From NCBI GenBank assembly GCA_017550285.1, contig JAFZPP010000022.1, positions 1 through 64,000 on the forward strand: a stretch of DNA of 64,000 nt, written 5' to 3'. This DNA is from Oscillospiraceae bacterium. Lineage in GTDB: Bacteria > Bacillota > Clostridia > Oscillospirales > Ruminococcaceae. Below, piece by piece: positions 5,416-49,832 of the stretch. Below the pieces are notes generated by a model. The model was not told the DNA's origin, ran no database searches, and was given only the letters and a program-made list of their open reading frames with translations. The position numbers and the translations under genes were made by a program. The first letter of the stretch is position 1; each line of letters opens with the position of its first letter.

Positions 5416-6679
5416 CCGCTTCCGCCTCCTCCTGCTCTGCCCGCAGCACAAAGACCGTATCAGGCTGCAACTGCTTTGCGGCTTCTGCGATATCGGCGCG
5501 CGTGACCTTCTGCATTGCATCCGTGATTTCCTGCGGACTGCGCGGATCGCCGCGGCGCAGCCTGAGCATCTGCTGCATTGCAAGATCGCTGATCGTATCC
5601 GAGGCGGCTGCCGCCTGAAATGCATAGCGCAGGATCGCCTTCTGCATCATGTCGTCGGTGAAATCACCGGCTTGCAGTGCATGAATCTGCGCCGCGACCG
5701 CTTTTCTGACCGCATCCGTATTCGCAGCATCAATGCCGATATCAATGAACAGCGTATGCTTGAATGCGGCGTGCGAGAGCAGGCAGTAATAGCAGAGCCC
5801 GCAGCGCTCGCGCAGATTCGTAAACAGCAGCGAATCTGCAATCCAGCCGAGAATGCTGCAAAGCATCAGCATTACCTCGCGGCGGATATTTTCATATTTA
5901 TAGGTCAGGACGAGCTTTGTCTGCCCGACCGGCATGATCTCCGATTCGATGCGGATTTCCGGCTGTATCGGGCTCGGCGCTTCAAACCGTACCTGCACCG
6001 GCTGACGGTTCAGACTGCCGAAACGCACTTGCAGGAGTGCGGCAATCTGCGGCTTCGGTGCGGGCGTGACGGCAGCGATCTCAATAAACGCTGTCCGCAG
6101 GATATTCTGCCAGACCGCATATGCCTGTGCTGCCGTGATCTGTTCTGCTTCGGGACGGAAGCCGTGCGCCGGAATCGCAGCCGGCTCGCCGGAAAATGTC
6201 AGCGCGGCAGCCTGTCTGAGCGCATAGCTGCGTTTGTCGTTCTGCTCACAGTCAATATCGTCGAGCAGATTCTGCTTGCAGATGCGGAATACCGGATCGC
6301 AGAATGCACCGTTTTCCGCATTCGGATGCAGCAGTGCACCGGTGACAAGCTGCAATACAGATTCTGTAATCTGCTCGCCGTTCAGCGTATAGGCATCGTC
6401 GAGCCATGACGCCGTAAAGTCTATGACGGCTGCATCGCCGCAGAGCGAGAGCTTTGCAATGAAATCCGCGGCATAGAGCGATTCCAGCTGCAAGGTCATC
6501 GCATTGACGGACGGGAATTCTGCCGAGGATGCCGTCAGAATATCCGGCAGCAGCGCATGAACCGGCGCCGAAATCCGGTCGCGCGGGATATGAAACTGGA
6601 GCGTCAGCAGGCAGCTCCGGAATTTCGGATCATGTATTTCGGTATATCGGATGCCGTTTCCGAGCATGGTTTCCGGCAT
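5405..6679 (-). CDS. M16 family peptidase-like subunit lacking the zinc motif (YmfF-like)
   Basis: The 424-residue protein has the M16 fold outline and a C-half RERCGLCYY segment, the Arg/Tyr motif of the inactive half in M16 pairs. No HxxEH is found in the N-terminal domain, so it is probably the non-catalytic partner of the next gene. The start at 6679 is chosen because AAAGGAG lies eight bases upstream; an in-frame ATG 45 bases earlier has no ribosome site. It is the first gene of the leftward three-gene operon with lgt last. Confidence 0.85.
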   Translation of the reverse strand: MPETMLGNGIRYTEIHDPKFRSCLLTLQFHIPRDRISAPVHALLPDILTASSAEFPSVNAMTLQLESLYAADFIAKLSLCGDAAVIDFTASWLDDAYTLNGEQITESVLQLVTGALLHPNAENGAFCDPVFRICKQNLLDDIDCEQNDKRSYALRQAAALTFSGEPAAIPAHGFRPEAEQITAAQAYAVWQNILRTAFIEIAAVTPAPKPQIAALLQVRFGSLNRQPVQVRFEAPSPIQPEIRIESEIMPVGQTKLVLTYKYENIRREVMLMLCSILGWIADSLLFTNLRERCGLCYYCLLSHAAFKHTLFIDIGIDAANTDAVRKAVAAQIHALQAGDFTDDMMQKAILRYAFQAAAASDTISDLAMQQMLRLRRGDPRSPQEITDAMQKVTRADIAEAAKQLQPDTVFVLRAEQEEAEADDI

Positions 6680-6732
6680 GATGCGCGCTCCTTTCTGTTC
6701 AAGATCGTCCCCCCATGCGGGCATACCTAATT

Positions 6733-6761
6733 ATTATACCATATTATTACGAAAAATGCAA
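6733..6761 (-). promoter_or_regulatory. Promoter of the M16-M16-lgt operon
   Basis: On the minus strand TTGCAT (6761-6756), a 17-base spacer and a perfect TATAAT (6738-6733) precede the first M16 start codon by about 55 bases. Confidence 0.75.
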
Positions 6762-6874
6762 GTTGAGAGCAGTCACTTTTTCGCTGACGGTTTGTTTTCT
6801 GAGAACTTTAGATCAATGCCTGCGGGCGCTGCCTTTTTATTACGGAAAAGCAAGACGAAAAACGGGTGAGGAAT

Positions 6875-6909
6875 AGAAAAATGCCGCAGAATCACGGTGA
6901 TTCTGCGGC
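6875..6909 (-). terminator. Terminator of the isochorismatase-family gene
   Basis: A 13-bp perfect stem (6883-6895 with 6897-6909, GCCGCAGAATCAC) lies just past the stop codon. On the minus strand it is followed by ATTTTTC. It sits 11 bases from the CDS end. Confidence 0.8.
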
Positions 6910-6919
6910 GCTTTTGTGA

Positions 6920-7447
6920 TTATACGATTTCCATTTGGCAGACTGCCATGGCAGACAGCGCATTTGCGTGGCTTTCCGGCGAGACACCGGCACAGCATTC
7001 CGAAATAATCTTGATCGGGACCTCCGGAAAGGCTGCTTTCAGAATCATTGCATTGCTGATGACGCAGATGTCCGTGCAGATGCCGATAACCTGAAATTCC
7101 TCAATCTTGCGGCGCTTTCCGATCACCTTCGGCAGATCGGCAGCACCGAATGTCACCTTCTCAAGCAGGATTGCATCCTCGCCGAGCGCGGTCTGAACGG
7201 TCTTTTCGAGCGCCCAGCCCTTGGTGCCCTTGATGCAGTGCGGAACCGGCAGCTTTCTGCCCTCCTGCGTGTTGGGGTAATCCTCAGTGTGTGTATCAAG
7301 CGTTGCGACGATCAGTCCGTCCGGATTCTCCTTGCGCCATGCCTTGATGTACTTGGCGACCGGCTTGACCACGGCAGCCGTTTCCGGATTGCCGAGTGCG
7401 CCCGTGGTAAAATCCTTCTGCATGTCAATGACGATCAGTGCTTTCAT
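6920..7447 (-). CDS. Isochorismatase-family cysteine hydrolase (nicotinamidase-like)
   Basis: The 175-residue protein carries the family catalytic triad: Asp8 in VIDMQKDF, Lys97 in LLEKVTFGA and Cys128 in ICTDICVISNAM. A metal-type DTHTEDYP motif (residues 51-58) is typical of nicotinamidases (PncA), which hydrolyse nicotinamide to nicotinate and ammonia in NAD salvage. The length is a little short for PncA, so the precise substrate is unproven. Two adjacent ATGs exist; the second (7447) has better spacing from AAAGGAG. It stands alone between a terminator and a divergently spaced small gene. Confidence 0.85.
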   Translation of the reverse strand: MKALIVIDMQKDFTTGALGNPETAAVVKPVAKYIKAWRKENPDGLIVATLDTHTEDYPNTQEGRKLPVPHCIKGTKGWALEKTVQTALGEDAILLEKVTFGAADLPKVIGKRRKIEEFQVIGICTDICVISNAMILKAAFPEVPIKIISECCAGVSPESHANALSAMAVCQMEIV

Positions 7448-7548
7448 CATGAAGCTCCTTTCAAGATTTCATATCGGGGTCTGTTACGCATTCAAATGTT
7501 CCGGAAGTGCAGTACAGTATCGTTTCATACGGTGCACCTTCCGTCTGC

Positions 7549-7725
7549 TCAGATGATTCTGCGGATCAGCTTACCGGCAGTGTGTCTGCGAAGTACGCGG
7601 CTGCCTTGCCTGAAGATAGTGTCAACGCCCTTTTCCACGATGCGCTCCGTGACTTCCTCGGTCACTCTGCGCACGACCTTTCTGCCGACCTTTCGTACAA
7701 TTTTCTTTGCAATTTTTCGTCCCAT
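7549..7725 (-). CDS. Small very basic protein of unknown function
   Basis: The 58-residue protein begins MGRKIAKKIVRKVG and alternates Lys/Arg with Val/Ile through its first half, then reads TEEVTERIVEKG before a second basic stretch ending LIRRII. It has no Cys and no clear signal peptide or membrane helix, and could form a long amphipathic cationic helix. The start at 7725 has AAAGGA nine bases upstream, and a strong promoter lies about 60 bases further up, which argues that it is a real gene. A nucleic-acid-binding or membrane-active role is only speculation. Confidence 0.55.
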   Translation of the reverse strand: MGRKIAKKIVRKVGRKVVRRVTEEVTERIVEKGVDTIFRQGSRVLRRHTAGKLIRRII

Positions 7726-7784
7726 ATGTTTCCGTCCTTTCTGTCTCAAAGCCCTGCGGCAGCTTCGCCGCTCTGCTTAATGCT

Positions 7785-7813
7785 ATGATAGCACATTCCG
7801 CCCTGTTTGTCAA
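7785..7813 (-). promoter_or_regulatory. Promoter of the small basic protein gene
   Basis: On the minus strand TTGACA (7813-7808), a 17-base spacer and TATCAT (7790-7785) lie about 60 bases before the start at 7725. Confidence 0.75.
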
Positions 7814-8010
7814 GAGATTTCCGCGGCGGCATGGGCTTTTTATGATGTAAAACAGATTCCGTCCGATCCTGCCGCCCGTCTCCGTTTTCACAATGCCCTG
7901 TCTGCGCTTCCTCCTGCGAACCGACATTTTTCGCACGAGTTCTGCGGTATAATAAAACAGATAATCTGCATATGCTTATACAATGTGCAAAATGAGGAAG
8001 GATGATTCTG

Positions 8011-10248
8011 ATGATTGAATGGAAAGAACTGCGTGAGAATGCATATGTCCGGCGGACGGGAACGCTGCTGCTCTGCATGCTGACGGCTTGTCTGCTCTCA
8101 CTGGCGAGGTTTTTCGGGATGCCGCTGCCGCTGAATGCGGCGTTTGCTGCGGCAGTCTCACCGGCAGGCGGTGTTGCGGTACTGGCGGGCGGTGCGGCAG
8201 CGGACCTGCTGACCGGTACCCTGCAAAAGCAGCCGATTCTGCTCTGTGCATCGGCGCTTGTGACGATCATTCGCTGGCTGCTCAATGTGAAGCAGTCGCC
8301 CCGTGCGGCTGCGCTGCTTGCCGGATGCAGTACATGTGCCTCGGCAGTGATCTTTGCAATCGCGCGGCTGACGGGCGGCAGGGAGTGGATCCTCTGGGGG
8401 ATATTCAGTCTTCTGAATGCAGGGCTTGCATATTGCATCCGGCAGGTTCTGCTGCGGTTTGAGACGGATTTTCCCGTGCGGCTGCATGAGGGCGATACGA
8501 CAGCGTTTTCGGTCTGTGCGGTGATCGGGCTGACGGCGCTCTGCTCGCTGCGGCTGATGCAGCTCAGCTTCGGAATCATGCTTGCAGCGGCTGTGATTCT
8601 GACCGCAGGCAAGCGGTACCGCGTGACAGGCGGCGTCATCTGCGGAACGCTCTCCGCACTGGCGATTGTGCTCGCAGACGGCAAAACAGCATCCTATGCC
8701 GTGATGCTGCCTGCTGCCGGATTTGCCGCCGGACTGCTCTCCGGCAGACCTGCCGCGGTCAGCTATATGGTATTTCAGATTTGCGGTGCAGCGGGGCTGC
8801 TGTCTGCACATTTGGATGCATCTGCGGCAAATGCGGCGGTCAGCGGGATGATCGGCGGACTCGTCTTTCTGATGCTGCCGACCGTACAGGCTGCGGACAG
8901 GCTCGTGCAGTGGAGCGATTCCGAAGCCGATCTTGCGGCACTGACAGAGGCAAGGCTCGAATTTCTGTCGCATTCGATTGCGGGTGTGCGCGGCAATGCG
9001 GAGCGGATTGCGAATGTGATGTCCGGCGGCGATCCTGCCGCAGATCAGTTCAAGACCGTTTGTGAAACGGTATGCAGCCGGTGCCGGAGCCGTTCGCTCT
9101 GCTGGGATCATGATGACCGCGAGGCGCGGACATGCTTCCGGCAGCTTTCCGAGGCGGATTTATCAGAGAAGCTCAAGGCACCGTTCGGGTGCGTGCAGCC
9201 GGATCGGGTGACGGCTGCTTTTTCGCGTACCAAGCGGCAGAATGCGGTGACACGGGCGCTTGCGGCAAGGCTGCATGATTCGCAGAAGCTGCTGTTTACG
9301 CAGATGCGCATTACCGAGGAGCTGCTGCACGGTGCCGGAAAGCAGTCGCGGCGCACGTATCACCGCGAGCTGACACGCTATGTCTCGGATGTGCTCGCAA
9401 AATATGACGTGCCGGTTCTGGCGGCGGCGGTCTCGACGGGCGAACATCACCGGATGCTGATTGAGCTCTATGCACCGGCGGATGAAAAGCTCGATGCTGC
9501 ATTGATTTCCGAATGCCTGTGCGATGCGCTGCAAAGACCTGTTGCATGCTGCGGCACGGAGAAGGCGGGCAGCGAGCAGCGCATGATCCTGCAGACCGCA
9601 GGCGGCTACGGCGTCCGGACGGCAGCCGCACAGTGCGCTGTCCATGAGGATGAGCCCTGCGGCGACTGCTGGGATACCTTCTCTGACGGTGAGGGCGCAT
9701 TCTATCTGGTTGTATCGGACGGCATGGGCTCCGGCAGACATGCTGCCGTCGATGCGCGGATTGTCCTGTCAAATTTCCGGCAGCTTGTACAGTCCGGCAT
9801 GGACTGCAAAGCTGCCGCGCGTATGATCAATGCGATCATGCTGACGAAATCCGGCGAGGAGCGCTTTGCAACACTGGATGTTGCAAAAATCTGTACGGAC
9901 ACTGCTGCCGTCACGCTCTACAAATACGGCGCGGGACCGACGTTTGTCCGGCACGGCAGTCAGATTACGCTCTGTCAGGCGGCGACGAATCCGATCGGGA
10001 TTCTGCCGAATGCCGAGCCCTATACAACTGTTTTGAAGCTGGAGCGCGGCGATATGCTCTTCCTTCTGACGGACGGTCTGGACGATGCACTGTTCCCGTA
10101 TGTGCGGCAGAAGCTGCGGCAGGGCGGCGATCTGCAAACACTTGCGCATACAGTCTGCGCAAAGGCACAGCGCGAATCCAAGGGCGCGCCGCGCGATGAT
10201 GTCACGGTGCTTGCGGCAGCGATCACGGCTGCCGAAATTGATGAATAA
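8011..10248 (+). CDS. spoIIE: Stage II sporulation protein E (membrane serine phosphatase)
   Basis: SpoIIE dephosphorylates the anti-anti-sigma factor SpoIIAA in the forespore, releasing sigma-F, and also acts at the polar septum. The 745-residue protein has about ten hydrophobic segments in the first 300 residues, a linker region, and a C-terminal PP2C-type phosphatase domain. Metal-site motifs are visible: VVSDGMGSG (near residue 570), FLLTDGLDD and RDDVTVLAAA. The start at 8011 has AGGAAGG nine bases upstream; the ATG at 8002 touches that site and is rejected. The length is slightly below that of Bacillus SpoIIE (827). A TATAAT box lies at about 7948, but no convincing -35. Confidence 0.92.
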   Translation: MIEWKELRENAYVRRTGTLLLCMLTACLLSLARFFGMPLPLNAAFAAAVSPAGGVAVLAGGAAADLLTGTLQKQPILLCASALVTIIRWLLNVKQSPRAAALLAGCSTCASAVIFAIARLTGGREWILWGIFSLLNAGLAYCIRQVLLRFETDFPVRLHEGDTTAFSVCAVIGLTALCSLRLMQLSFGIMLAAAVILTAGKRYRVTGGVICGTLSALAIVLADGKTASYAVMLPAAGFAAGLLSGRPAAVSYMVFQICGAAGLLSAHLDASAANAAVSGMIGGLVFLMLPTVQAADRLVQWSDSEADLAALTEARLEFLSHSIAGVRGNAERIANVMSGGDPAADQFKTVCETVCSRCRSRSLCWDHDDREARTCFRQLSEADLSEKLKAPFGCVQPDRVTAAFSRTKRQNAVTRALAARLHDSQKLLFTQMRITEELLHGAGKQSRRTYHRELTRYVSDVLAKYDVPVLAAAVSTGEHHRMLIELYAPADEKLDAALISECLCDALQRPVACCGTEKAGSEQRMILQTAGGYGVRTAAAQCAVHEDEPCGDCWDTFSDGEGAFYLVVSDGMGSGRHAAVDARIVLSNFRQLVQSGMDCKAAARMINAIMLTKSGEERFATLDVAKICTDTAAVTLYKYGAGPTFVRHGSQITLCQAATNPIGILPNAEPYTTVLKLERGDMLFLLTDGLDDALFPYVRQKLRQGGDLQTLAHTVCAKAQRESKGAPRDDVTVLAAAITAAEIDE

Positions 10249-10585: not shown

Positions 10586-12853
10586 ATGAGAAACGAACAG
10601 ACAAACCGGAATCCGAATGCGTTTCCGCTTCACCTTTTCTATCAGGGCAAAAACTTTGATGCGCAGCGCTTTTTCGGCGCACATACCGAGGAACGGGACG
10701 GCGTGAAAAAGACCGTGTTCCGCGTCTGGGCACCGAATGCGATTGATGTTTCCGTCGTCGGCGATTTCAACAGCTGGGACCGCCACGCGAACACCATGCT
10801 GCCGGTCGCGGACGGCATCTGGGAGGCGGCAGTCGATCAGCTCCCGATGTATTCGGTATACAAATACAGCATTCTGACAAAATCCGGTGAAGTAAAGCTC
10901 AAGAACGATCCCTACGGCACACATTTTGAAACCGCGCCGCAAAATGCGACGAAGCTCTATGAATCCGCCTACAAATGGAAGGATGCAAAGTGGCTTGAAA
11001 AGAAAGCCAAAACCAATATCTATAAATCTCCGATGAATATATACGAGGTGCATTTTGATTCGTGGCGCACCTATGAGGACGGCAATCCGCTGAACTATGT
11101 CGAATTTGCAAAGCAGATTGTCCCCTATATGAAGGAGCTTTCGTATACGCATATCGAATTCATGCCGCTGACGGAGTATCCGTATGACGGCTCATGGGGC
11201 TATCAGGTGACGGGCTATTTTGCACCGACCTCGCGCTTCGGTACGCCGGATGATTTCCGGCAGATGATCGACATGTTCCATGAGGCGGGCATCGGTGTTA
11301 TCCTTGACTGGGTCCCCGCACATTTCCCGAAGGACGAGCAGGGCCTTTATGAATTCGACGGCGCGTGCCTCTATGAATATACCGATCCGCTTAAGCGTGA
11401 GCACAAGGGCTGGGGCACCAGAGTCTTCGATTACGGCAGACCGGAGGTTGTCTCGTTCCTGATCTCCTCGGCATGCTGGTGGCTCGATGAATTTCATATC
11501 GACGGACTGCGCGTGGATGCAGTCGCCTCGATGCTCTATCTGGACTATGACCGCCGCGACGGCGAATGGCGCCCCAATGCAAACGGCGGCAGAGAAAATC
11601 TCGAAGCAGTCGCATTTCTGCGGCAGCTCAATGAAACCGTATTCGCGCGGCATCCCGATGTGCTGATGATCGCGGAGGAATCGACGGCGTGGCCGCTGGT
11701 CACAAAGCCGACCGATATCGGCGGTTTGGGCTTCAATTTCAAGTGGAATATGGGCTGGATGAACGACATGCTCACCTATATGTCCATGGACCCGCTTTAC
11801 CGTGCATTCAATCATGACAAGCTGACATTCTCGTTCTTCTACTGCTTCTCCGAGAACTATGTCCTGCCGATCTCGCATGATGAGATCGTGCACGGCAAGT
11901 GCTCGATGATCGAGAAGATGCCGGGTCTGGAGGGCGACAAGTTTGCTTCCTACCGCGCATTCCTCTGCTATATGTTTGCGCATCCGGGCAAGAAGCTGCT
12001 CTTTATGGGACAGGAATTCGGACAGCGCAGAGAATGGAACTACAAGGAGCAGCTTGAGTGGTTCATGCTCGATTATCCGAACCACAAAACACTGCTGGAA
12101 TTTTCCAAGGCGCTCAATAAGTTCTATCTGAATACGGCGGCGCTTTGGGAGAATGATGATTCATGGAAGGGCTTCAGCTGGATCTCCAATGATGATTACC
12201 GGCAGAGTGTGATTGCGTTCCGCCGTATCGACGACAGCGGCAATGAGATCATTGCTGTCTGCAATTTCGTACCGGTCGGCAGAGAAAATTATAAGATCGG
12301 CGTGCCGTATGAGGGCACGTATACGCTGGTGTTTGATTCTGATGCGGCTGCATTCGGCGGCAGCGGCACCGCGCCCAAAAAGGTGAAATCCGATGAATAC
12401 AGCATGCACGGCTTCGATCAGTCCCTTGAGCTGACGATTCCGCCGCTGTCTGTACAGTATTATAAGCTGGTGCCGAAGAAGACACGTACCGCAAAGGCAG
12501 AGAAACCTGCGGAAAAGCCGAAGCGCACCCGTACAAAGAAGGCGGAGGCGCCGGCAGAGACCGTGACGGCAGAAAAGCCGAAGCGTACCCGTGCAAAGAA
12601 GGCGGAGGCACCGGCAGAGAACGTGACGGCAGAAAAGCCGAAGCGCACCCGTACAAAGAAGGCGGAGGCGCCGGCAGAGACCGTGACGGCAGAAAAGCCG
12701 AAGCGTACCCGTGCAAAGAAGGCGGAGGCACCGGCAGAGAACGTGACGGCAGAAAAGCCGAAGCGTACCCGCGCAAAGAAGGCGGAGGCGCCGGCGGCAG
12801 AGGAAAAACCGAAACAGACACGGAAACCGGCAGCGAAAAAGAATAAGGCATAA
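10586..12853 (+). CDS. glgB: 1,4-alpha-glucan branching enzyme with repetitive Lys/Ala/Pro-rich tail
   Basis: GlgB makes the alpha-1,6 branches of glycogen. The 755-residue protein has an N-terminal CBM48-type domain ([21 protein letters not shown]), a GH13 barrel with the nucleophile Asp in GLRVDAVAS (near residue 312), the acid Glu in IAEEST (near 364) and [10 protein letters not shown] (near 430), then an all-beta C domain. From about residue 631 to the end it gains a tail of 20-residue repeats ([15 protein letters not shown] type) that resembles eukaryotic or bacterial histone-H1-like tails; family members normally end before this point. GGGAGG lies upstream of the start. It is the first gene of glgB-C-D-A. 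Confidence 0.94.
12512..12800 (+). repeat. 60-bp in-frame tandem repeat in the glgB tail
   Basis: Just under five copies of a 60-bp unit encode the 20-residue period of the GlgB tail. Units alternate between two variants, so 12541-12660 and 12661-12780 form a 120-bp higher-order duplication that differs at only three positions. This near-identity points to recent unit duplication and possible length variation between strains. Confidence 0.9.
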
Positions 12854-40255: not shown

Positions 40256-43200
40256 AAACGGCATCCTGACCGGATACAGCGGCGATGCACACAGTCTTGT
40301 GATCCCCGAAGGCGTCCGCGTGATCGGCAGCGCGGTATTCAAGGGCATGGCGTGGATTACGGATGTGACACTGCCGGAGGGATTGACGGAGATCGGCGAC
40401 AATGCATTCAAGGGATGCAGGCAGCTTGCACAGATCAATTTTCCGGCGGGGCTGAAACGCATCGGCAATTTTGCATTTCACAGATGTCATGCGCTTACGT
40501 CCGCACTGCTGCCGGATTCGGTCACGGCGCTCGGGACGGGTGTATTTCTCTATTGCGACAACCTGAAAACGGTTCGTGCGTGCAGCGTCAGACGCATCGA
40601 AAAGCAGACCTTTGCAAATAATACGCAGCTCTGCGCCCTGATGCTCAGCAGTGAACTGGACTGCTCGAATCTGAAGGATGATATTTTTACCGGCTGCATC
40701 CGGATCAAAGAGATCAGCCTCTCTGACGGGACGCAGTTCCATGCAGATAATCTGATAGATGTATTCGGTTCGGAGCAGCATGTGCATCCGGTTGTCCGCG
40801 CGATTGCCGAAAGTGTTTATCAGTCGCTGGAGATTGAAAACGGCGTACTGTATAAGCTGCATGTCGATCTCAAGGCATTTGAACTGCCGGAGGGGATTAC
40901 CTGTATTGAAAAGGGCTGCTTTTTTGATAAACGGGGCATCGTGTCGATTCGCTTTCCGGAAAGCCTTTCGCGGATTCGGACCAATGCATTCGGCAACTGC
41001 ATCAATTTGCAGCAGATCACTCTGCGGCATGAGAATGTCGTGATCGACGACGGTGCGTTCAGAGGATGCAGCAGCCTGAAAACGGTCATCATCGGCAGCA
41101 CGGAATACCGGCTCGGCGGCATCAATTATGCGGAGGATACGCCGTATCTCATCCGCAGAATCAACGAGCAGGTCATGTCCGATTTTTATATCAGCGGCAA
41201 AATCCTGATGTCCTACAGCGGAAAGGAAAACCGCGTGACGGTGCCGGAGGGCGTGGAGATCATCGGCGAAGGCTGCTTTGCGGGGAATGACAGGATTGAC
41301 CGTGTCATCCTGCCGGATACGGTGCGCGAGATTCATGAAAACGCATTCCGGAACTGTACCTCGATGCAGTCGGCAGTGCTGTCGGAATGTCTGCGGCGGA
41401 TATGCAGCGGCGCATTTGAAAACTGCAAAAAGCTGATTCGCTTCAATGTTCCGGAAAGTCTGGCGGAGGTCGGATTTGCTGCATTCCGCGGCTGCAAATG
41501 TCTGGAGCTGACGCAGTTTGAAACGGGCACGCCTGCGGCTGTGCGTGAGCCGGAGCGTTCTTACGGCGCGGATGATATTGCGGCATACAGCTTCTGCGAT
41601 GATGAAACCGTGACGGAACTGGTGCTGGAAAAGCCTGCTGTCATCGGCAAATATGCTTTTTCAGGCTGTCCTTCTCTGCAATCGGTTGTGATCTGCAATC
41701 CGGACTGTACGGTCGAACAGTATGCCTTTGAAAAATGCCCCTCGCTTCGGCGCATCCGCGTGCTTGCCGGAACAATCGAAAGGGGCGCATTCTCCTTCTG
41801 CCGGAATCTGGAATATGCAGAGATCAGCGGCATATCCGCGCTCGGGGATGAGGTGTTCGCGGGCTGCGCGTCCCTGAAAACAGTGCAGATTTCGGAGACG
41901 GTTTCGGCGCTCGGCAGACGCTGCTTTGATGAATGCACGGCGCTGGAGGCGTTTGATTTCTCGTCCGTGCGGCGCATCGGGGCGCGGGCATTTGAACGCT
42001 GCGACAGCCTGACCGAAGTGACGCTGACAGGCGCTGCCGTCGGCTGGCATGCATTTGCGGACTGTGCATCCCTGCGGAGAATCATTCTCGATTCGGAAAC
42101 GGATTTGCAGAGCGGTGCATTTTCCGGCTGTACCTGCGCGGAGACTGTTGTGCTGGACGGAACAGAATACCCGTTCTCCCGCTTTGCGCAGAGCAGAAAT
42201 ACGGCGGATAATCCGTATCCTGTCCGCGTGCAGGAGGTCATCGGCAGCGTGTATGCCTGCTTTGCGGTCAATATGCAGAACGGCATCGAAGCATACAGAG
42301 GCGATGCTGTCTGCGTGCGCATTCCGGATGATATTGTATCGGCGGAGGATGAAGCGTTCCGCGATCATCTGCGCGTGACGGAGATTCGCTTCCCCGCCTG
42401 CTTCCGATACAGCGGAAAGCTGACCTTTGCAGGCACAGGCTGGCTGGAAAAACGGCGGAAGGAAGTGCCTTATAATATTGTCAACGGTCTGCTGATCGAC
42501 GCTTATGCCTGCGGCGAAACAGCCGAAATACCGGAAGAAACAGTCCGCATTTGCAGCTGGGCGTTTGCCGGAAATACGGCGCTCAGAAAGCTGATTCTGA
42601 AAAAGGAACGTGTTGCGATTGATGCGTTTGCGTTCCGGAACTGTATCAATCTGAAAACAATTCAGTCTCCGGACGGCAATATTTATACGCTCGAACGGTT
42701 CAGCGATGTGACCGAAAAGGCATATCCGGAGCTTGTCCGGCGCATCTTTGCCGAGTGCATCAACTGCTTCAAGCTGAATGCAGACGGTGTACTGGAGGAG
42801 AGCACCGGCAATATCAGAGAGCTGGTGTTTCCGGACGGCATCAAGGCAATCGGCGCGCAGGTATATATGGACTGCAATCTGCTGGAATGCATTGTTCTTG
42901 CGCCGGAAACCGGACGCATCGGAAAATCCGCCTTCAAAAACAGCAAGTGGCTGCGCAGCGTACAGCATGCAGGCGGTGTAGCGGAAATCGAAGCGCAGGC
43001 ATTCAGCGGATGCAGGAGCCTTGCGTCCATTGATCTCTCCGATGCGCTGGTATCGCTTGGCAAACGGGCGTTTGAGCATTGCTGCGCGCTGCAAGAGATT
43101 CATATTTCGGAGCATCTGACCGTGATTCCGGAGCGCGCGTTTTTCCGCTGCAAAAGTCTGCGGAAGGTTGTGATACCGGCTTCGGTCGAGCGGATCGAAT

Positions 43201-43301
43201 CGCAGGCATTTGCATTTTGCAGCGGACTGTCGGAGGTTGTGCTCTGCAATCCGGAGACACAGATTGCGGATGATGCGTTTGCGTGGTGTGAAAGCCTATG
43301 A
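40227..43301 (+). CDS. Large cytoplasmic BspA-like leucine-rich repeat protein
   Basis: The 1024-residue protein is built almost entirely of BspA/LRR_5 repeats (core I-xx-xAFxxC-xx-L), about 35 copies in several blocks. The blocks are separated by short non-repeat linkers that share a YPVRVQEVIGSVYACF / YPELVRRIFAECINCF pattern, so the protein looks like a repeated super-module of repeats plus linker. There is no signal peptide, lipobox or membrane segment, which is unusual because BspA-like proteins are normally surface exposed. Start codons at 40227 or 40233 are both possible. It overlaps dus (29 bases) and the aldo/keto reductase gene (ATGA). Confidence 0.82.
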   Translation: MNMPEEYQIENGILTGYSGDAHSLVIPEGVRVIGSAVFKGMAWITDVTLPEGLTEIGDNAFKGCRQLAQINFPAGLKRIGNFAFHRCHALTSALLPDSVTALGTGVFLYCDNLKTVRACSVRRIEKQTFANNTQLCALMLSSELDCSNLKDDIFTGCIRIKEISLSDGTQFHADNLIDVFGSEQHVHPVVRAIAESVYQSLEIENGVLYKLHVDLKAFELPEGITCIEKGCFFDKRGIVSIRFPESLSRIRTNAFGNCINLQQITLRHENVVIDDGAFRGCSSLKTVIIGSTEYRLGGINYAEDTPYLIRRINEQVMSDFYISGKILMSYSGKENRVTVPEGVEIIGEGCFAGNDRIDRVILPDTVREIHENAFRNCTSMQSAVLSECLRRICSGAFENCKKLIRFNVPESLAEVGFAAFRGCKCLELTQFETGTPAAVREPERSYGADDIAAYSFCDDETVTELVLEKPAVIGKYAFSGCPSLQSVVICNPDCTVEQYAFEKCPSLRRIRVLAGTIERGAFSFCRNLEYAEISGISALGDEVFAGCASLKTVQISETVSALGRRCFDECTALEAFDFSSVRRIGARAFERCDSLTEVTLTGAAVGWHAFADCASLRRIILDSETDLQSGAFSGCTCAETVVLDGTEYPFSRFAQSRNTADNPYPVRVQEVIGSVYACFAVNMQNGIEAYRGDAVCVRIPDDIVSAEDEAFRDHLRVTEIRFPACFRYSGKLTFAGTGWLEKRRKEVPYNIVNGLLIDAYACGETAEIPEETVRICSWAFAGNTALRKLILKKERVAIDAFAFRNCINLKTIQSPDGNIYTLERFSDVTEKAYPELVRRIFAECINCFKLNADGVLEESTGNIRELVFPDGIKAIGAQVYMDCNLLECIVLAPETGRIGKSAFKNSKWLRSVQHAGGVAEIEAQAFSGCRSLASIDLSDALVSLGKRAFEHCCALQEIHISEHLTVIPERAFFRCKSLRKVVIPASVERIESQAFAFCSGLSEVVLCNPETQIADDAFAWCESL

Positions 43302-44347
43302 GATACAGAAAACTCGGAAACACCGGTCTGACGGTCTCGGAGATCGGCTTCGGCACTATTCCGATTCTGAGCGGAAATGTGCCTGTTCTGCCGGATTATT
43401 ACAGTCCGGAGCTGCCGGAAGCCGTCGATATCATGATGCATGCATACAAAATGGGCTGCAATCTGTATGACACGGCGATTCCGGAGGAATACGGCGATGC
43501 GGAATACAAGCTCGGCGTATTTGCGGAAAAGGTCGGCAGAGAGCATATCATCATATCGGACAAGGCACGGTTCATGGACGGGAATGACATGTTCCGCGAG
43601 GTGCAGCGCTCGGCGGAGAACCTCGGAACGCATCCGGATATTTATTTTGTGCATCAGGTCGATGAGAAAAATCAGGATGAGACATTCAGCCGGTACGGCG
43701 CGCTGGATGCGCTCTGTGATCTGAAGAAAGCCGGTATGATCCGATATACGGGCATTGCGACGCATTATTACAGTGTCGCTGCGCGTGCTGCCGCGGACAG
43801 CAGAGTGGATGTCATCCAGACCAGCGGCAATATTCTGGAACGCGGCATTCTGGATCGGATTGCAGAAAATGCGCAGTTTCAGGGCAAGGGGCTGATTCTG
43901 AACAAGGTCTATGCGGCGGGCTGCTTGATTCCTGCATTTACGCCTGCGGAGCTGATCGGCGGCATGCTGCATTATCCCTTCTCCTGCGCGCTGATCGGCA
44001 TCGGAACAGCAGAACAGGCGGATGCCGCGATGCAGACGGAATATGTGCCGGTATCCTTTTCCTTTGATGCGGTCACGCTGCGGCTTGCGCAGCATTTTGC
44101 ACCGGTGCCCTGCACAAGATGTCAGCGGTGCAGATGTCCGCACGGTTATGAAGTCCATATTCTGCTCCGGCAGTATAATTATTATCATCTCGGGAAGAAT
44201 TACTGGGCAATGAAAAAGCTGCGGATGAATATTGATGAGGTATATGAGCAATGCCGGAAATGCACGGAGAGACAATGCATGCAGGACTGCCCGCAGAAGC
44301 TGCGGATACCGGAGCTGATCGGGCGCATATACGAAATGACGCGCTGA
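43298..44347 (+). CDS. Aldo/keto reductase with C-terminal Fe-S cluster region
   Basis: The 349-residue protein has an AKR barrel with the tetrad Asp58, Tyr65, Lys89 and His119 (NLYDTA, PEEYGD, ISDKAR, YFVHQV). A C-terminal Cys-rich region follows, with CTRCQRCRCPHG (about 269-280) and CRKCTERQCMQDCP (about 320-333), typical of the ferredoxin-like AKR subgroup that binds 4Fe-4S. It is a likely NAD(P)H-dependent oxidoreductase of unknown substrate. It is the last gene of the operon, coupled to the LRR gene by ATGA. Confidence 0.87.
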   Translation: MRYRKLGNTGLTVSEIGFGTIPILSGNVPVLPDYYSPELPEAVDIMMHAYKMGCNLYDTAIPEEYGDAEYKLGVFAEKVGREHIIISDKARFMDGNDMFREVQRSAENLGTHPDIYFVHQVDEKNQDETFSRYGALDALCDLKKAGMIRYTGIATHYYSVAARAAADSRVDVIQTSGNILERGILDRIAENAQFQGKGLILNKVYAAGCLIPAFTPAELIGGMLHYPFSCALIGIGTAEQADAAMQTEYVPVSFSFDAVTLRLAQHFAPVPCTRCQRCRCPHGYEVHILLRQYNYYHLGKNYWAMKKLRMNIDEVYEQCRKCTERQCMQDCPQKLRIPELIGRIYEMTR

Positions 44348-44397
44348 GCACCGGATACCGCATGCCGGAAATAAGACGTATTTGCTGAAAAGATAAC

Positions 44398-44431
44398 GGA
44401 ACCGCCGTCTGCGTATGCAGGCGGCGGTTCC
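44398..44431 (+). terminator. Strong hairpin after the dus operon
   Basis: GGAACCGCCG (44398-44407) pairs with CGGCGGTTCC (44422-44431), with an inner CTGC-GTAT-GCAG stem. There is no U-rich tail, so termination by this hairpin alone is uncertain. Confidence 0.5.
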
Positions 44432-44520
44432 TGACTGCTGCCGAAAAACGATATTTGACAGCCCTCTGCTTTTGTGCAGATGAGATGAAACAGAATGGTG
44501 ATTGTTGTACAAAACGTCGA

Positions 44521-44549
44521 TTGACATTCACTGTTTATTATGCGATGAT
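44521..44549 (+). promoter_or_regulatory. Possible promoter of the CRISPR-Cas remnant
   Basis: TTGACA (44521-44526), 17 bases, GATGAT (44544-44549). The -10 box is weak. A further TTGACA at about 44581 lacks a matching -10. The rest of the gap from 44432 to 44610 shows no gene. Confidence 0.4.
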
Positions 44550-44610
44550 GATAAAAACGAGCAATAATCTCCAAAAATGTTTTGACAACCCAAGACGAAA
44601 AGGAGGGCGA

Positions 44611-44928
44611 ATGGAACAGTATTATGCGCATTTGGAAAACAAATACGGTCAAAAAGAGCCGCTGGAAGTGCATCTGCAAAAAACATCGGAGCTTTCCGGA
44701 CGGTACGCAGCCGCATTCGGTGAAGCATCCGCCGGAAAATGGCTCGGCTGGTTTCATGATGCCGGAAAAGCATCGGCGCTGTTTCAGGGCGTTTTGCAGG
44801 GGACGGAGCATAGGGTCAATCACGCGGCAGCAGGTGCGTATCTGCTGATGATAAACAGGTGTATGCCGCTGGCGCGTGTGATTTATGCGCATCATGACGG
44901 CTTCCCTGAAAGATATTTGCTTGCCTGA
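44611..44928 (+). pseudogene. cas3: Truncated cas3: HD nuclease start only
   Basis: A good ribosome site (AAAGGAGG) leads to a 105-codon frame that matches only the first part of a Cas3 HD nuclease. The metal ligands in order are His21 (LEVHLQKTSELS), His49-Asp50 (WFHDAGK), His71 (NHAAAGAYL) and His94-His95 (YAHHDGFP). A full type I Cas3 has 700-900 residues, with the helicase downstream. Here the reading frame leaves Cas3 near residue 98-100 and ends after RYLLA. The last codons are the tail of cas4 read in another frame. So a deletion removed the rest of cas3 and what followed. Confidence 0.8.
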
Positions 44929-44992
44929 CGTCAAGGATTCTGTCGCAGATTATATGGATTTGATTCAGAAAGATTTTCGGGAGGTGACTTAA
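44903..44992 (+). pseudogene. cas4: 3' end of cas4
   Basis: In the frame one base off from the cas3 fragment, the DNA encodes SLKDICLPDVKDSVADYMD, then LIQKDFREVT and a TAA at 44990-44992. SLKDICLP matches the C-terminal CxxCSLxDxCLP region of type I-C Cas4, whose last Fe-S cysteine is here Cys at 44918-44920. The stop is one base from the cas1 start, the normal cas4-cas1 spacing. The upstream part of cas4, and probably cas5, cas8c and cas7, is missing. Confidence 0.7.
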
Positions 44993-44993
44993 A

Positions 44994-45641
44994 ATGAAAA
45001 AGCTCTGCAATACACTTTATATTTTAACGGAGAACAGCTATCTGCATTGCGAAAACGGTACAATCTGCGTGAAGATCGGCGGGACAGAAAAAACAAGAAT
45101 TCCGGCGCATACGGTTGATTCGATCATATGCTTATGCAATACGACTGTATCTTCTCCGTTTATCGGGTTCTGCGGTGAACAGGGGATATCTTTGTCTTTC
45201 CATTCGGATCACGGCAGGTTTTACGGCAGAATAACCGGTCCCGTCAGCGGAAATGTATTGCTGCGCACGAAACAGTATCAATGGATCGGTTCGCCGGAAT
45301 CCGCGGAAATCGTGCGGAATATCCTCAGCGGAAAGCTGCTGAACAGCCGGAATCTTCTTTTGAAATCCGCACGAAATACAACAGAGGATAAAGCGGATAT
45401 TCTCAGAAACGCGGCACAGATGCTTTCAGAACAGCAAACTGCTCTGGAAACTGCGGACAGCATTGACCGTATGCTTGTTGATCCGGCACAATTCGCACAA
45501 ATCAAAGCGGAGCTTTCAAAAATCATTGATTCGCAGACGGATTCCATTCGGTTTTACCGTCTCGGCAGCAAATGGGAGACCAAAATCGAAACAATGGGGC
45601 TGGAAAAGGGAATCAGGCAGGATGAACCGCTGCTTCTGTAA
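44994..45641 (+). pseudogene. cas1-cas2: In-frame fusion of the cas1 start to the cas2 end
   Basis: The 215-codon frame begins as type I-C Cas1 (MKKLCNTLYILTENSYLHCE, IPAHTVDSIICL, GRITGPVSGNVLLR, LLNSRNLLLKSARN) up to about residue 159 (TADSIDR). It then reads VDPAQFAQIKAELSKIID, SLRFY-like SIRFYRLGSKWETKIETMG and ends EPLLL, the C-terminal half of type I-C Cas2. Full Cas1 has about 340 residues and Cas2 about 96, so the catalytic half of Cas1 (Glu/His/Asp site) and the Asp-bearing N terminus of Cas2 are gone. The junction is at about 45468-45480. GGGAGGTG precedes the start, so the fusion could still be translated, but it cannot be an integrase. Confidence 0.78.
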
Positions 45642-45746
45642 AAGCGATGAGCATAATCCCTGCCTGCGGCAGATCATACCGGTCGGCGCACTGCATAAAA
45701 AAATACTGCTTATTCCGTAAAAAATGCTGTTTATTCCGTGATTGCA

Positions 45747-45775
45747 TTGACAAAAATAGACGAATATGCTATATT
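45747..45775 (+). promoter_or_regulatory. Promoter of the GH141-like gene
   Basis: TTGACA (45747-45752), 17 bases, TATATT (45770-45775). The 5' leader is about 155 bases. Upstream, 45642-45746 contains two imperfect copies of CTGYTTATTCCGT 21 bases apart and no gene. Confidence 0.72.
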
Positions 45776-45937
45776 TATGGTGTATAATCCGGCGCGGTTG
45801 TGAATAATTAACAATATTAAAGAAAAATAATGGGTGAGACGGTACAATCACACGGATTCTGTCATCTCACGCACCGGACAGCGCAGTCGGGAAATACTGC
45901 TGCACCGGTTATATTTATTTGGAACGGGGGTATATTT

Positions 45938-48820
45938 ATGAAACACAGAACACACAGACAAACTGCACTCTTTTGCAGTCTGCTGCTGACGGCTGGGGCA
46001 GTGCAGCTTCCGGCGGTACCGGTCAGTGCCGCGGAAGTCTATGCCGAGCTCTATGTCTCGCCGGACGGTGACGACAGCAATGCAGGTACAAAAGCCGCAC
46101 CGCTGAAAACGCTTGCCGGTGCGCGGGATGCCGTGCGCAAGTGTAGAGACGGTATGACCGGTGATATTATCGTCAATTTCCGCGGCGGTGTGTACCGTAT
46201 GACGGAGGCGGTCGCATTTGATACGCGCGATTCCGCACCGGATGGCTGCCGCATCATCTATCAGGCATATGAGGATGAAACACCGGTTTTCTCCGGTGCA
46301 GTGCAGGTCACGGGCTGGGAGAAATACAATGACAAGCTCTATGCTGCGCCGCTGGACCGTGACGCGAAGCTGCGCAATCTCTATGTCAACGATCACCGTG
46401 CGAACATGGGCAGTGTCCGTGTCGAAGCGCAGGGCGGATACGGAGAATACGGCATTACCGCAGGACAGGCAGACTGGGCGTGGGTCTCCGGCGTGAAATC
46501 CGACGGCGTCAAATACCGCGCAGGCGATGTGCCGAAGATTGAATCCAATTTCGATGATCTGGAAATCGTCAACGGCACGACATGGAATGAAAATATCGTC
46601 TGCACGCGCGATGTGAAATATGAAAACGGTACGCTTGTCCTGCTTTTGCAGCAGCCGTACGGTGCGATTGCGCAGACGCCCGGCTGGAACTGCGCCTTCA
46701 ACTGCGGCGGGCAGCATACGATTTACAACGCATTCAGCTTTGTTGATTCGCCCGGCGAATTCTATTTTGATAAAACCGCGAAGATGCTTTATTATTATCC
46801 TTATGAGGGCGAGGATATGTCAAAGGCGGATGTCGAAGCGCCGGTTGCCGATCAGCTCATTACAATCGCAGGCAAATCCACGACAGACCGCGTGCAGAAT
46901 CTGACATTCCGCGGCATCACCTTCGCACATACCGATTATCAGCTCACGGATGTGGACGGCTCGCACGGCAAAACGACCTGTCAGGCGGCACAGACCTATA
47001 CCGCCTTTGCCGATTCCAACTGGCACCAGTATAAATATGAAATGGTTGATACGCTGCCGGGTGTCATCAATGTGACCAATGCAGATTCTGTCAACTTCAC
47101 CGGCAATGTCATCAAACACACCGGTGCGGACGGTCTCTCGATGCCGAATGACGTTGTCAACTGCACGGTCTCCGGCAATTACATCACCGATATCACTTCA
47201 TCGGGCATTACAATCGGACATCCGCAGCATGTGTACATCGGCGACGGTGACGGCTCGAACAAAGAGAAGTATCCGCGCGGCATTGAAGGCATCTGCAAGA
47301 ATGATACGGTCAGCGACAATCTGCTCTATGATATCAGCGTGGTGCACGGCTTCGGCGGCTGCGCGGCTGTTACGGCGTATTTCGTCGATTCTGTGAAGAT
47401 TCTGCGCAATCAGGTGCAGAAAACCGCGTATAACGGCATTCATCTCGGCTGGGGCTGGAATATGTTTCTTGATTCCGAGACCTGCCGTGACAATCAGATT
47501 TGCTATAACCGCGTAATCGACGCCGTGAACCGTCTGCATGACAGCGGCGCAATCTATACAATCGGGCAGATGCCGGGCACGGTCATCAATGAGAACTATG
47601 TAGACGGCATTCCGGCGGGCGGCTTCGGCGCGCCGACCTACGGTCTCCATAACGATGACGGTACGGCATGGATTGAGGAATTTGACAATGTGCTCGACAT
47701 TGATAAAAATGTGACCTATACGATCAACTGTGAGGATTTCGGCATCAAGCATCATCTGAATATCAAGCGCACCTATGCGACCGTCAACAAAATGGGCAAG
47801 AATCCGCCCGACTGCGATATTGATGCACCGATTGTGGTTGCGGATGCGGTATGGAATCAGCCGCAGTATGAAATCTGCGTTAATTCCGGCTTGCAGGATG
47901 CATTCAAAAGCATCATGCCGGAAAATATGATGACCGATGCGGATTATGTATTCCCCGCAAGCTGTGCAACAACCGGCGATACGATTATCCCGATCCGCAG
48001 TGCAGGCAGCGGCAAAACGGTCTGGTTTGCACCGGACGGCACAACGGCATTCAAAGCCGGCAGCAATATGACAAAGGTCACCGGTACTGCCGCAAAGATC
48101 AAAACACCGGCGGAATCCGGCGAATACTACATCTATGTGACCGATACTTCCGGCAAGGTGCTGAGCAAGTCGAAGCATCTGCTGCGTGTCGGCGGCGGCA
48201 GTGCGGCAATGAGCGGCGATGCGGTCGAGGCAGCATCCTATGATGTGCAGTCCGGCGTCGATATCGAGAATTTGCAGGAAGGCGGCAGGGATGTCGGCTA
48301 TATCGAAAACGGTGACTGGATCGGCTTTCAGAATGTCGATTTCAAGGACGGCGCAGATGCAATCGAGTTTTGCTATGCGTCACCGTCTGGCGGTTCTTCG
48401 ATTGAGGTCCGGCTCGATGCACCGGACAGTACGCTGATCGGCACTTGTGCGGTGAAAAATACCGGCGGCTGGCATGATTTTGCGACCAATACCGCAGCGC
48501 TTGAGAAGACAACCGGCAAACATGATCTCTATTTTGTTTTCAAGGGCGGCGAAAGCTATCTGTTCAATCTGATGTCGTGGAAGCTGAAATTCCCGAATGA
48601 GCCGGAAATGATTGAAGACTGGATTTACGGTGATCTCAACGGCGATGAGATCATTGACGGGCGCGATCTGACGCTGCTGAAACGTGCTGTTCTGACGGGC
48701 ACTGTGGCAGGTCTGAAAGCGGGCGATCTCAACGGCGATCTGGATGTCGATGCGGAGGACGTCAGACTGCACATAGATTATCTGCTCGGAAAAATCAAGC
48801 AATTTCCGGTTGAAGAATAA
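45938..48820 (+). CDS. Secreted beta-helix glycoside hydrolase (GH141-like) with CBM6 and dockerin
   Basis: The 960-residue protein has a signal peptide (1-31), a right-handed parallel beta-helix catalytic region (about 33-640) starting AELYVSPDGDDSNAGTKAAP and containing NRLHDSGAIYTIG, then an Ig-like segment, a CBM6 (about 763-885) and a C-terminal dockerin (about 896-955; GDLNGDEIIDGRD and GDLNGDLDVDAED). The domain order matches cellulosomal GH141 enzymes, which include xylanases and fucosidases; family assignment from the fold outline is probable, and specificity is unknown. The start at 45938 has GGGGG eight bases upstream; 36 extra upstream codons are rejected because they are not signal-like. 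Confidence 0.82.
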   Translation: MKHRTHRQTALFCSLLLTAGAVQLPAVPVSAAEVYAELYVSPDGDDSNAGTKAAPLKTLAGARDAVRKCRDGMTGDIIVNFRGGVYRMTEAVAFDTRDSAPDGCRIIYQAYEDETPVFSGAVQVTGWEKYNDKLYAAPLDRDAKLRNLYVNDHRANMGSVRVEAQGGYGEYGITAGQADWAWVSGVKSDGVKYRAGDVPKIESNFDDLEIVNGTTWNENIVCTRDVKYENGTLVLLLQQPYGAIAQTPGWNCAFNCGGQHTIYNAFSFVDSPGEFYFDKTAKMLYYYPYEGEDMSKADVEAPVADQLITIAGKSTTDRVQNLTFRGITFAHTDYQLTDVDGSHGKTTCQAAQTYTAFADSNWHQYKYEMVDTLPGVINVTNADSVNFTGNVIKHTGADGLSMPNDVVNCTVSGNYITDITSSGITIGHPQHVYIGDGDGSNKEKYPRGIEGICKNDTVSDNLLYDISVVHGFGGCAAVTAYFVDSVKILRNQVQKTAYNGIHLGWGWNMFLDSETCRDNQICYNRVIDAVNRLHDSGAIYTIGQMPGTVINENYVDGIPAGGFGAPTYGLHNDDGTAWIEEFDNVLDIDKNVTYTINCEDFGIKHHLNIKRTYATVNKMGKNPPDCDIDAPIVVADAVWNQPQYEICVNSGLQDAFKSIMPENMMTDADYVFPASCATTGDTIIPIRSAGSGKTVWFAPDGTTAFKAGSNMTKVTGTAAKIKTPAESGEYYIYVTDTSGKVLSKSKHLLRVGGGSAAMSGDAVEAASYDVQSGVDIENLQEGGRDVGYIENGDWIGFQNVDFKDGADAIEFCYASPSGGSSIEVRLDAPDSTLIGTCAVKNTGGWHDFATNTAALEKTTGKHDLYFVFKGGESYLFNLMSWKLKFPNEPEMIEDWIYGDLNGDEIIDGRDLTLLKRAVLTGTVAGLKAGDLNGDLDVDAEDVRLHIDYLLGKIKQFPVEE

Positions 48821-48830
48821 AACTGTATGA

Positions 48831-48867
48831 AACAGAGACCTGACCTTGCCGTCAGGTCTCTGTTTTC
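48831..48867 (+). terminator. Terminator of the GH141-like gene
   Basis: A perfect 14-bp stem, AACAGAGACCTGAC (48831-48844) with GTCAGGTCTCTGTT (48851-48864), is followed by TTC. It lies ten bases past the stop codon. Confidence 0.8.
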
Positions 48868-48974
48868 GGCATGGAAATACAGAAAATCATATGTGAAAAT
48901 GCACATTATATATACCGGAGCAGATGCTGTTTTGTCTGCAATCTGGATTTTTGATCGGACATCGGTTTTCCCTC

Positions 48975-49064
48975 TTGACAAATCAGAAGGTTGGTGATAA
49001 AATCTCATTGTTAGCATATGCTTACTGCTGATTTGCTGCGGTTAGATGCCGCTAACAATATGAG
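48975..49064 (+). promoter_or_regulatory. Promoter and inverted-repeat leader of the ABC exporter operon
   Basis: TTGACA (48975-48980), 17 bases, TAAAAT (48998-49003). Directly after it, CTCATTGTTAGC (49004-49015) pairs with GCTAACAA and TGAG (49051-49064), a long-loop stem covering the transcription start and leader. It could be a repressor operator or an RNA switch. The region 48868-48974 holds no gene. Confidence 0.65.
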
Positions 49065-49115
49065 GAGAACAATTATTTTTGCTCTCTGGGGACACAGCGA
49101 CATAAGGAGGTCATA

Positions 49116-49832
49116 ATGAGCGAAGCAGAAAGAAAATTCTTAGAGGTACACGGGCTGAAAAAGAGCTTCGGCAGCGGCGACACGAAACAGGATGTTCTGA
49201 AAGGGCTGGACTTCACGGTCAGCAAAGGGGAATTTTGTGTGCTGCTCGGACCGTCCGGTTCCGGAAAATCTACCCTGCTGAATATTCTCGGCGGCATTGA
49301 CAGCGCCGACGAGGGCGAAATCCTGATCAACGGCGACAAGCTCGAAGACATGAACGAAAAGAGCCTGACGCGCTACCGCCGCAAGCATCTGGGGTATGTG
49401 TTTCAATCGTATAATCTCATTCCGAATCTCAATGTCAAGGAAAACATCGAAACCGGCGCCTATCTCTCGGATCAGCCGCTGGACATTGACGAGCTGCTGA
49501 AAATCCTCGGCCTGTTTGAGCACCGCTATAAGCTGCCGAATCAGCTTTCCGGCGGTCAGCAGCAGCGCGTGTCAATCGGTCGGGCAATCGTCAAAAATCC
49601 GGATATTCTGCTCTGCGACGAGCCGACCGGCGCACTCGATTATACGACATCCAAGGAGATTTTGCAGCTCATTGAAGAGGTGAATCAAAAATACGGTAAT
49701 ACGGTCATTATGGTGACGCACAACGAGGCGATCAAGCGCATGGCAGACCATGTCATCAAGCTGCGTGACGGCAAAATCCGGCACGATGACCGCATCACGG
49801 ATAAAATCACTGCGGCTGAGCTGGAATGGTAA
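49116..49832 (+). CDS. ABC transporter ATP-binding protein (MacB/LolD type)
   Basis: The 238-residue ATPase has Walker A GPSGSGKST, Q-loop FQSYNLIPNL, signature LSGGQQQRVSIG, Walker B ILLCDEPTGALD and the H-loop VTHN. GALD after Walker B is typical of the MacB/LolD/FtsE class, which powers FtsX-type permeases to export peptides or move lipoproteins and antibiotics. AAGGAGGTC precedes the start. It is cotranscribed with the permease 12 bases downstream. Confidence 0.92.
   Translation: MSEAERKFLEVHGLKKSFGSGDTKQDVLKGLDFTVSKGEFCVLLGPSGSGKSTLLNILGGIDSADEGEILINGDKLEDMNEKSLTRYRRKHLGYVFQSYNLIPNLNVKENIETGAYLSDQPLDIDELLKILGLFEHRYKLPNQLSGGQQQRVSIGRAIVKNPDILLCDEPTGALDYTTSKEILQLIEEVNQKYGNTVIMVTHNEAIKRMADHVIKLRDGKIRHDDRITDKITAAELEW

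Follow-up and report, generated by a model that had tools for sequence, protein, structure and literature searches.

A type I-C CRISPR-Cas locus in this Oscillospiraceae genome has very probably collapsed through at least two internal deletions, leaving a frame that begins as Cas1 and ends as Cas2 and that is best explained as a recent pseudogene. It lies in the window, by which I mean the whole 64,000-nucleotide stretch analysed here, as a single frame of 215 codons (44994-45641, forward strand) with an ATG start and the sequence GGAGGTG directly 5' of it. Immediately upstream are remnants of Cas3 and Cas4, which were absent from the initial annotation. The features of this region are as follows; the relatives used for comparison (L021 and L110 to L115) are introduced below.

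43298-44347, forward strand: aldo/keto reductase
44611..44928, forward strand: Cas3 remnant in a 105-codon ORF, comprising the first ~97 codons (start of the HD domain) and a short out-of-frame tail to the stop
44611-44904, forward strand: Cas3-derived stretch of that ORF, from similarity to Cas3
44903..44992, forward strand: Cas4 remnant, last ~30 codons and stop, in a different frame from the Cas3 remnant (tblastn)
44994..45473, forward strand: N-terminal part of Cas1, codons 1-159/160 (TIGR03640; 62-68% identity to Cas1 of L021, L110, L111, L112 and L113)
45468..45476, forward strand: Cas1/Cas2 deletion junction, CGT ATG CTT (codons compared with those of cas1 and cas2 in seven relatives)
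45471..45641, forward strand: C-terminal part of Cas2, 56 codons and stop (PADLOC Cas2c, Pfam CRISPR_Cas2)
45830-48820, forward strand: frame of 996 codons encoding a carbohydrate-binding module and a dockerin

The fused frame and the remnants upstream

The initial annotation had read the frame as type I-C Cas1 for about 159 codons followed by the C-terminal half of Cas2, and profile searches agree with this, placing the junction at 159/160. In the 215-aa frame, Pfam PF01867 (Cas1) matches residues 8-161 above its cut-off (2.4e-34; profile 1-152 of 283), and TIGR03640 (Cas1c) matches residues 3-160 (4.3e-44; profile 1-160 of 340). The score for the latter, 151 bits, is under the cut-off of 385, as expected for a truncated Cas1, since that cut-off is set for the whole protein. 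For residues 160-215, where the lack of a Cas2 match had been named as a refutation, both Pfam and PADLOC give one: Pfam PF09827 (CRISPR_Cas2) matches residues 162-197 of the whole frame above its cut-off (1.3e-6; profile 38-73 of 74) and the tail alone at 2e-7, and PADLOC Cas2c matches at 4e-14 on the whole frame (residues 151-215) and at 1.7e-14 on the last 56 residues alone (profile positions 42-95 of 95). Against this, the match to TIGR01573 (cas2) is weak, at 0.015 for the whole frame and 0.0023 for the tail, and does not reach the cut-off. Together, the Cas1 and Cas2 profile matches are far above chance.

Neither protein is complete. The Cas1 part ends just short of the RGIEG or RGMEG motif present in all seven relatives. 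Cas1 has three metal ligands, the Glu in RGIEG followed by a His and an Asp; I take this Glu to be the first active-site residue, located just past the point where the frame leaves Cas1. The tail lacks the first ~40 residues of a complete Cas2 (about 96 aa), which presumably include the conserved Asp of the first strand. The frame has therefore lost the half of Cas1 that holds the catalytic residues and the beginning of Cas2 but has kept its phase and a good ribosome site, as initially described. The one structure model obtained for the fusion, from a 3-row alignment, has a mean pLDDT of 47.9, too low for it to weigh for or against a maintained protein.

The 105-codon ORF upstream matches TIGR01596 cas3_HD at 2.7e-11 (43.9 bits, cut-off 43.45) and PADLOC Cas3c at 4.6e-20, with a Pfam Cas3_HD match slightly below the cut-off (1.7e-4), and is 64% identical over 98 aa to the Cas3 of L110 and 54% identical over 94 aa to that of L112. 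The Cas4 remnant was recovered in both directions. In tblastn against the window, the end of the L110 Cas4 matches at 1.35e-5 (44% over 25 aa) and the L112 Cas4 at 3e-4; in the reverse search of six loci, the remnant peptide matches the Cas4 ends of L110, L111, L112 and L113 (8.7e-5 to 1.4e-7), and Cas4 gave no match in either L114 or L115. Its stop codon (44990-44992) lies immediately 5' of the Cas1 start. In sequence, in gene order and in this adjoining of Cas4 stop and Cas1 start, the remnants resemble the cas4-cas1-cas2 module of type I-C systems (Cas1c, TIGR03640), but here Cas1 is cut at 159/160, Cas2 is missing its first ~40 residues and Cas4 is reduced to its last ~30. The type I-C effector set (Cas3, Cas5, Cas8c, Cas7) is represented near the fusion by just the first ~97 residues of Cas3: searches of 43001-47000 with the L110 and L112 Cas5, Cas8c and Cas7 gave a single match, a piece of Cas8c at E 0.25.

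No Rfam match above gathering scores was found over 43000-49200. Right after the Cas2 remnant, at 45698-45739, are two 21-nt tandem copies that are 90% alike; the repeat patterns of the relatives do not match them. Elsewhere in the window, 60-nt tandem repeats at 12500-12795 encode the Lys/Ala/Pro-rich tail of a 755-aa frame. Its alpha-amylase and CBM48 domains suggest that it is probably a glycogen branching enzyme, and GlgB_N scores slightly below its cut-off.

Related loci and the deletion junctions

Seven relatives were compared. L021, a metagenome assembly of an uncultured Ruminococcus sp., was found by contig scan and is 68% identical over residues 1-158; L110 to L115 are six of the next seven best matches of the same Cas1 clade (G432 was left out) after G358 among 396 family genomes. 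G358, the best family match, is probably the same genome as L021, their match coordinates agreeing. Identity over the Cas1 part is 62-68% for L021 and L110 to L113, and about 50% for L114 and L115. In all seven, Cas1 is 339-342 aa long and Cas2, encoded separately, 95-96 aa, with starts picked by similarity (the L112 Cas2 would be 107 aa if an upstream Met were used, and the L110 cas1 start was read as ATA). Since the relatives carry separate, full-length Cas1 and Cas2, the frame is a product of deletion between I-C genes, as had been proposed, and not a member of a small Cas1-like family, whose short length would be expected to recur.

L112 shows the order cas3-cas5-cas8c-cas7-array-cas4-cas1-cas2 (labels other than query matches were assigned by eye). 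L113 follows the same order in the sequence examined, which starts within cas5, and the stretches examined for L111 and L021 start in an array 5' of cas4. These arrays span 6318-10570 in L112, 3530-11700 in L113, 16-500 in L111 and 3-232 in L021; the array lies between cas7 and cas4 where cas7 is visible (L112, L113), and after cas2 in L114 and L115. The L110 locus (4981-8187, reversed orientation) has no array in the stretch examined, a cas4 split over two frames and a cas8c of 429 aa, against 620 in L112; it is perhaps another decaying locus, and for these reasons was counted as intact for cas1-cas2 alone. The L021 genome has a second I-C-like locus (L099, G061:C19, 1759-10851) with cas3, cas5, cas4, cas1 and 13 repeats, its genes labelled by eye except for the cas3 match.

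With this order presumed ancestral, at least two deletions would account for the present sequence. In one, codon ~97 of cas3 would have been fused, out of frame, with cas4 about 30 codons before its end; cas5, cas8c and cas7 would have gone with it, as would the greater part of cas3 and cas4 and whatever array stood between cas7 and cas4. In the other, cas1 codon 159/160 would have been joined to cas2 codon ~40/41; against L110 this deletion measures about 0.67 kb. Between them, the two joins leave out Cas5, Cas8c and Cas7, the greater part of Cas3 and Cas4, the catalytic half of Cas1 and the start of Cas2.

At the Cas1/Cas2 junction the window reads ATT GAC CGT ATG CTT GTT GAT CCG, where the cas1 of L110 reads ATT GAC AGT ATG CGA GGA ATA GAG and the cas2 of L112 reads TTT GAA ATG CTT ATC GAC CCC. 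The word ATGC is present at the junction codon of cas1 in four of the seven relatives (L110, L112, L113, L114) and of cas2 in three (L021, L112, L113), and thus in both genes of L112 and L113. A deletion through ATGC, in phase in both genes, would keep the frame; if the break passed through this word, arranged as in these two relatives, the frame would have been preserved by chance. The shared word hints at a short-homology deletion, tentatively, being four bases long and missing in several relatives. At the cas3/cas4 join, two or three common bases at most can be seen by eye.

Distribution, genomic site and age

The genome containing the fusion is a draft assembly of 3.41 Mb in 50 contigs, 96% complete with 3.8% contamination. 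A search of it for the Cas1 family returned one match, the fusion itself, and a search for Cas7 returned none. There were also no matches to the GTCGC-type repeat, or to a wider pattern derived from the relatives, which finds 4-123 repeats in six of the seven (L021 and L111 to L115) but has no match in L110 or in the window. These genome-wide searches covered Cas1, Cas7 and the relatives' repeat types, and the checks for Cas3, Cas5 and Cas8c covered the vicinity of the fusion. Given this assembly content, spacer capture and type I-C interference both look impossible.

Among 30 genus genomes, compared as one per species like those of the family, nine have any match and one, the fusion's own, has the fusion. 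In the family, matches were found in 118 of 396 genomes. Of the matches listed, no other covers residues 1-215, and the fusion occurs in its own genome alone; those extending from residue 1 to residues 168-189 correspond to open frames of at least 344 aa. A conserved fusion family was considered and set aside, as the matches listed contain no second case and the fusion was not seen in several lineages. Two other short Cas1 frames noted among them (208 aa in G436 and 243 aa in G246) end at contig ends. In the stretch examined of G402 (L118, G402:C12, 2900-3940), the end of cas8c, cas7 and cas4 are retained, but cas1 is missing and just the last ~39 codons of cas2 remain, with a recombinase frame running across them on the opposite strand (Pfam Recombinase, 2e-22); this looks like an independent loss of cas1-cas2 within the same clade. 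A viral or plasmid origin was likewise rejected: no relative was found in the IMG/VR scan, and there were partial Cas1 matches in 3 of 50,697 phage records and matches in 31 of 72,556 plasmid records, all below 60% identity. In the 15 plasmid matches listed of these 31, Cas1 and Cas2 are annotated as separate genes wherever both match.

To the left of the remnants, a near full-length ortholog of the aldo/keto reductase (protein identity 79-87%) is found in six of the remaining 29 genomes of the genus, and one more has a piece of it at a contig end. In five of these relatives (L059 to L063), DNA similarity to the window stops at 44319-44347, and the 3 kb past the aldo/keto reductase differ both among the five and from the window. 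The region after 44347 thus appears, from this comparison, to be a variable site. No cas genes were detected 3' of the aldo/keto reductase in the 14-15 kb examined in each of the five (best E 0.004 and 0.005, for short pieces at chance level), which implies that in those genomes the locus was not ancestral at this site, or was lost from it. An intact allele at the same site was looked for, and not seen, in these five genomes whose downstream side was examined.

Signs of decay were measured by counting deviations at positions invariant among the other five close relatives, each relative being tested in turn in the same manner. The Cas1 part deviates at 4 of 65 such positions (relatives, 1-7 of 62-68) and the Cas2 part at 2 of 19 (relatives, 0-4 of 17-21). 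When L114 and L115 are included, the values are 2 of 35 for Cas1 (relatives, 0-8 of 33-41) and 1 of 12 for Cas2 (relatives, 0-1 of 11-12). The Cas3 part deviates at 3 of 27, the second highest value, the four relatives compared having 0, 1, 2 and 9 of 24-33. The Cas1 and Cas2 parts show no sign of long decay, fitting either a recent collapse or continued constraint, which this test does not separate because most of the change on these branches probably predates the deletion. Nor does dN/dS decide between them, because dS is saturated in most pairs (12 of 15 for the Cas1 part, 11 of 15 for the Cas2 part).

Alternative explanations and significance

Two fates had originally been offered for the frame, a fresh pseudogene or an expressed, dead adaptation-like protein. 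The evidence favours the first: Cas3 and Cas4 lie broken in the same stretch, the effector genes were not found there, and searches of the genome gave no other Cas1, no Cas7 and none of the relatives' repeats. The fusion does retain a clean frame, a start codon and a ribosome site; beyond these and the conserved sites, which show no excess of changes, the second has little in its favour. There is a sigma-70-like site at 44521-44549, 5' of the Cas3 remnant, although the region holds 5 promoter-like sites against 2.5 +/- 1.8 in shuffles. Such a protein might be maintained, for example, as a dimer of the catalytically dead Cas1 N-domain with a DNA-binding or integrase-interfering Cas2 tail. I consider this quite unlikely: among the matches listed the fusion is confined to one genome, the out-of-frame cas3-cas4 join indicates that the operon is broken in general, and the array and partners (a second Cas1, Cas7 and the relatives' repeat types) were not found in its own genome. 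That a dead Cas1-Cas2 protein is expressed and was selected for a new role after the loss of CRISPR would be more doubtful still.

The joins could also be errors of assembly, with the real locus intact or broken otherwise. The genome is a draft of many contigs with some contamination, and the fusion is seen in a single assembly; however, errors would be needed at both joins, about 0.57 kb apart, and the assembly provides neither a second Cas1 nor any Cas7 match elsewhere. The contig (90,895 bases) extends for about 45 kb on each side of the fusion, and the order of the left neighbours is kept in relatives, making such errors improbable. Finally, the presence of both families within one frame recalls the Cas1-Cas2 fusion protein of the Thermoproteus tenax subtype I-A system, described in PMC3513311 as part of a complex in which it interacts with Cas4 and Csa1. 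As in that protein, Cas1 and Cas2 sequences share one polypeptide, but the present frame is without half of each protein and without the remaining system. With Cas1 ending before RGIEG and Cas2 lacking its beginning, a natural, complete fusion enzyme of this kind is extremely improbable.

The collapse of a type I-C locus by internal deletion, with the fusion as a recent pseudogene, thus remains the preferred reading. Degenerate CRISPR-Cas loci are mentioned in bifidobacteria in excerpts of PMC4521832, and these are likewise remnants without a working set; here, however, an in-frame deletion join links two cas genes and searches turned up no array, and those excerpts describe no such join. A truncated Cas1-Cas2 fusion like this one was not found described in the open-licence literature searched, including the excerpted texts of PMC3513311, PMC3150331 and PMC4521832. 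The frame also calls for caution in annotation: because it passes the Pfam cut-offs for both Cas1 and Cas2, it could lead to the genome being scored as carrying Cas1, or be taken for a natural Cas1-Cas2 fusion. Such a collapse is an ordinary end of a CRISPR locus, and the ends of four genes, remaining at two joins, provide a clear snapshot of a CRISPR-Cas locus in the course of disappearing.
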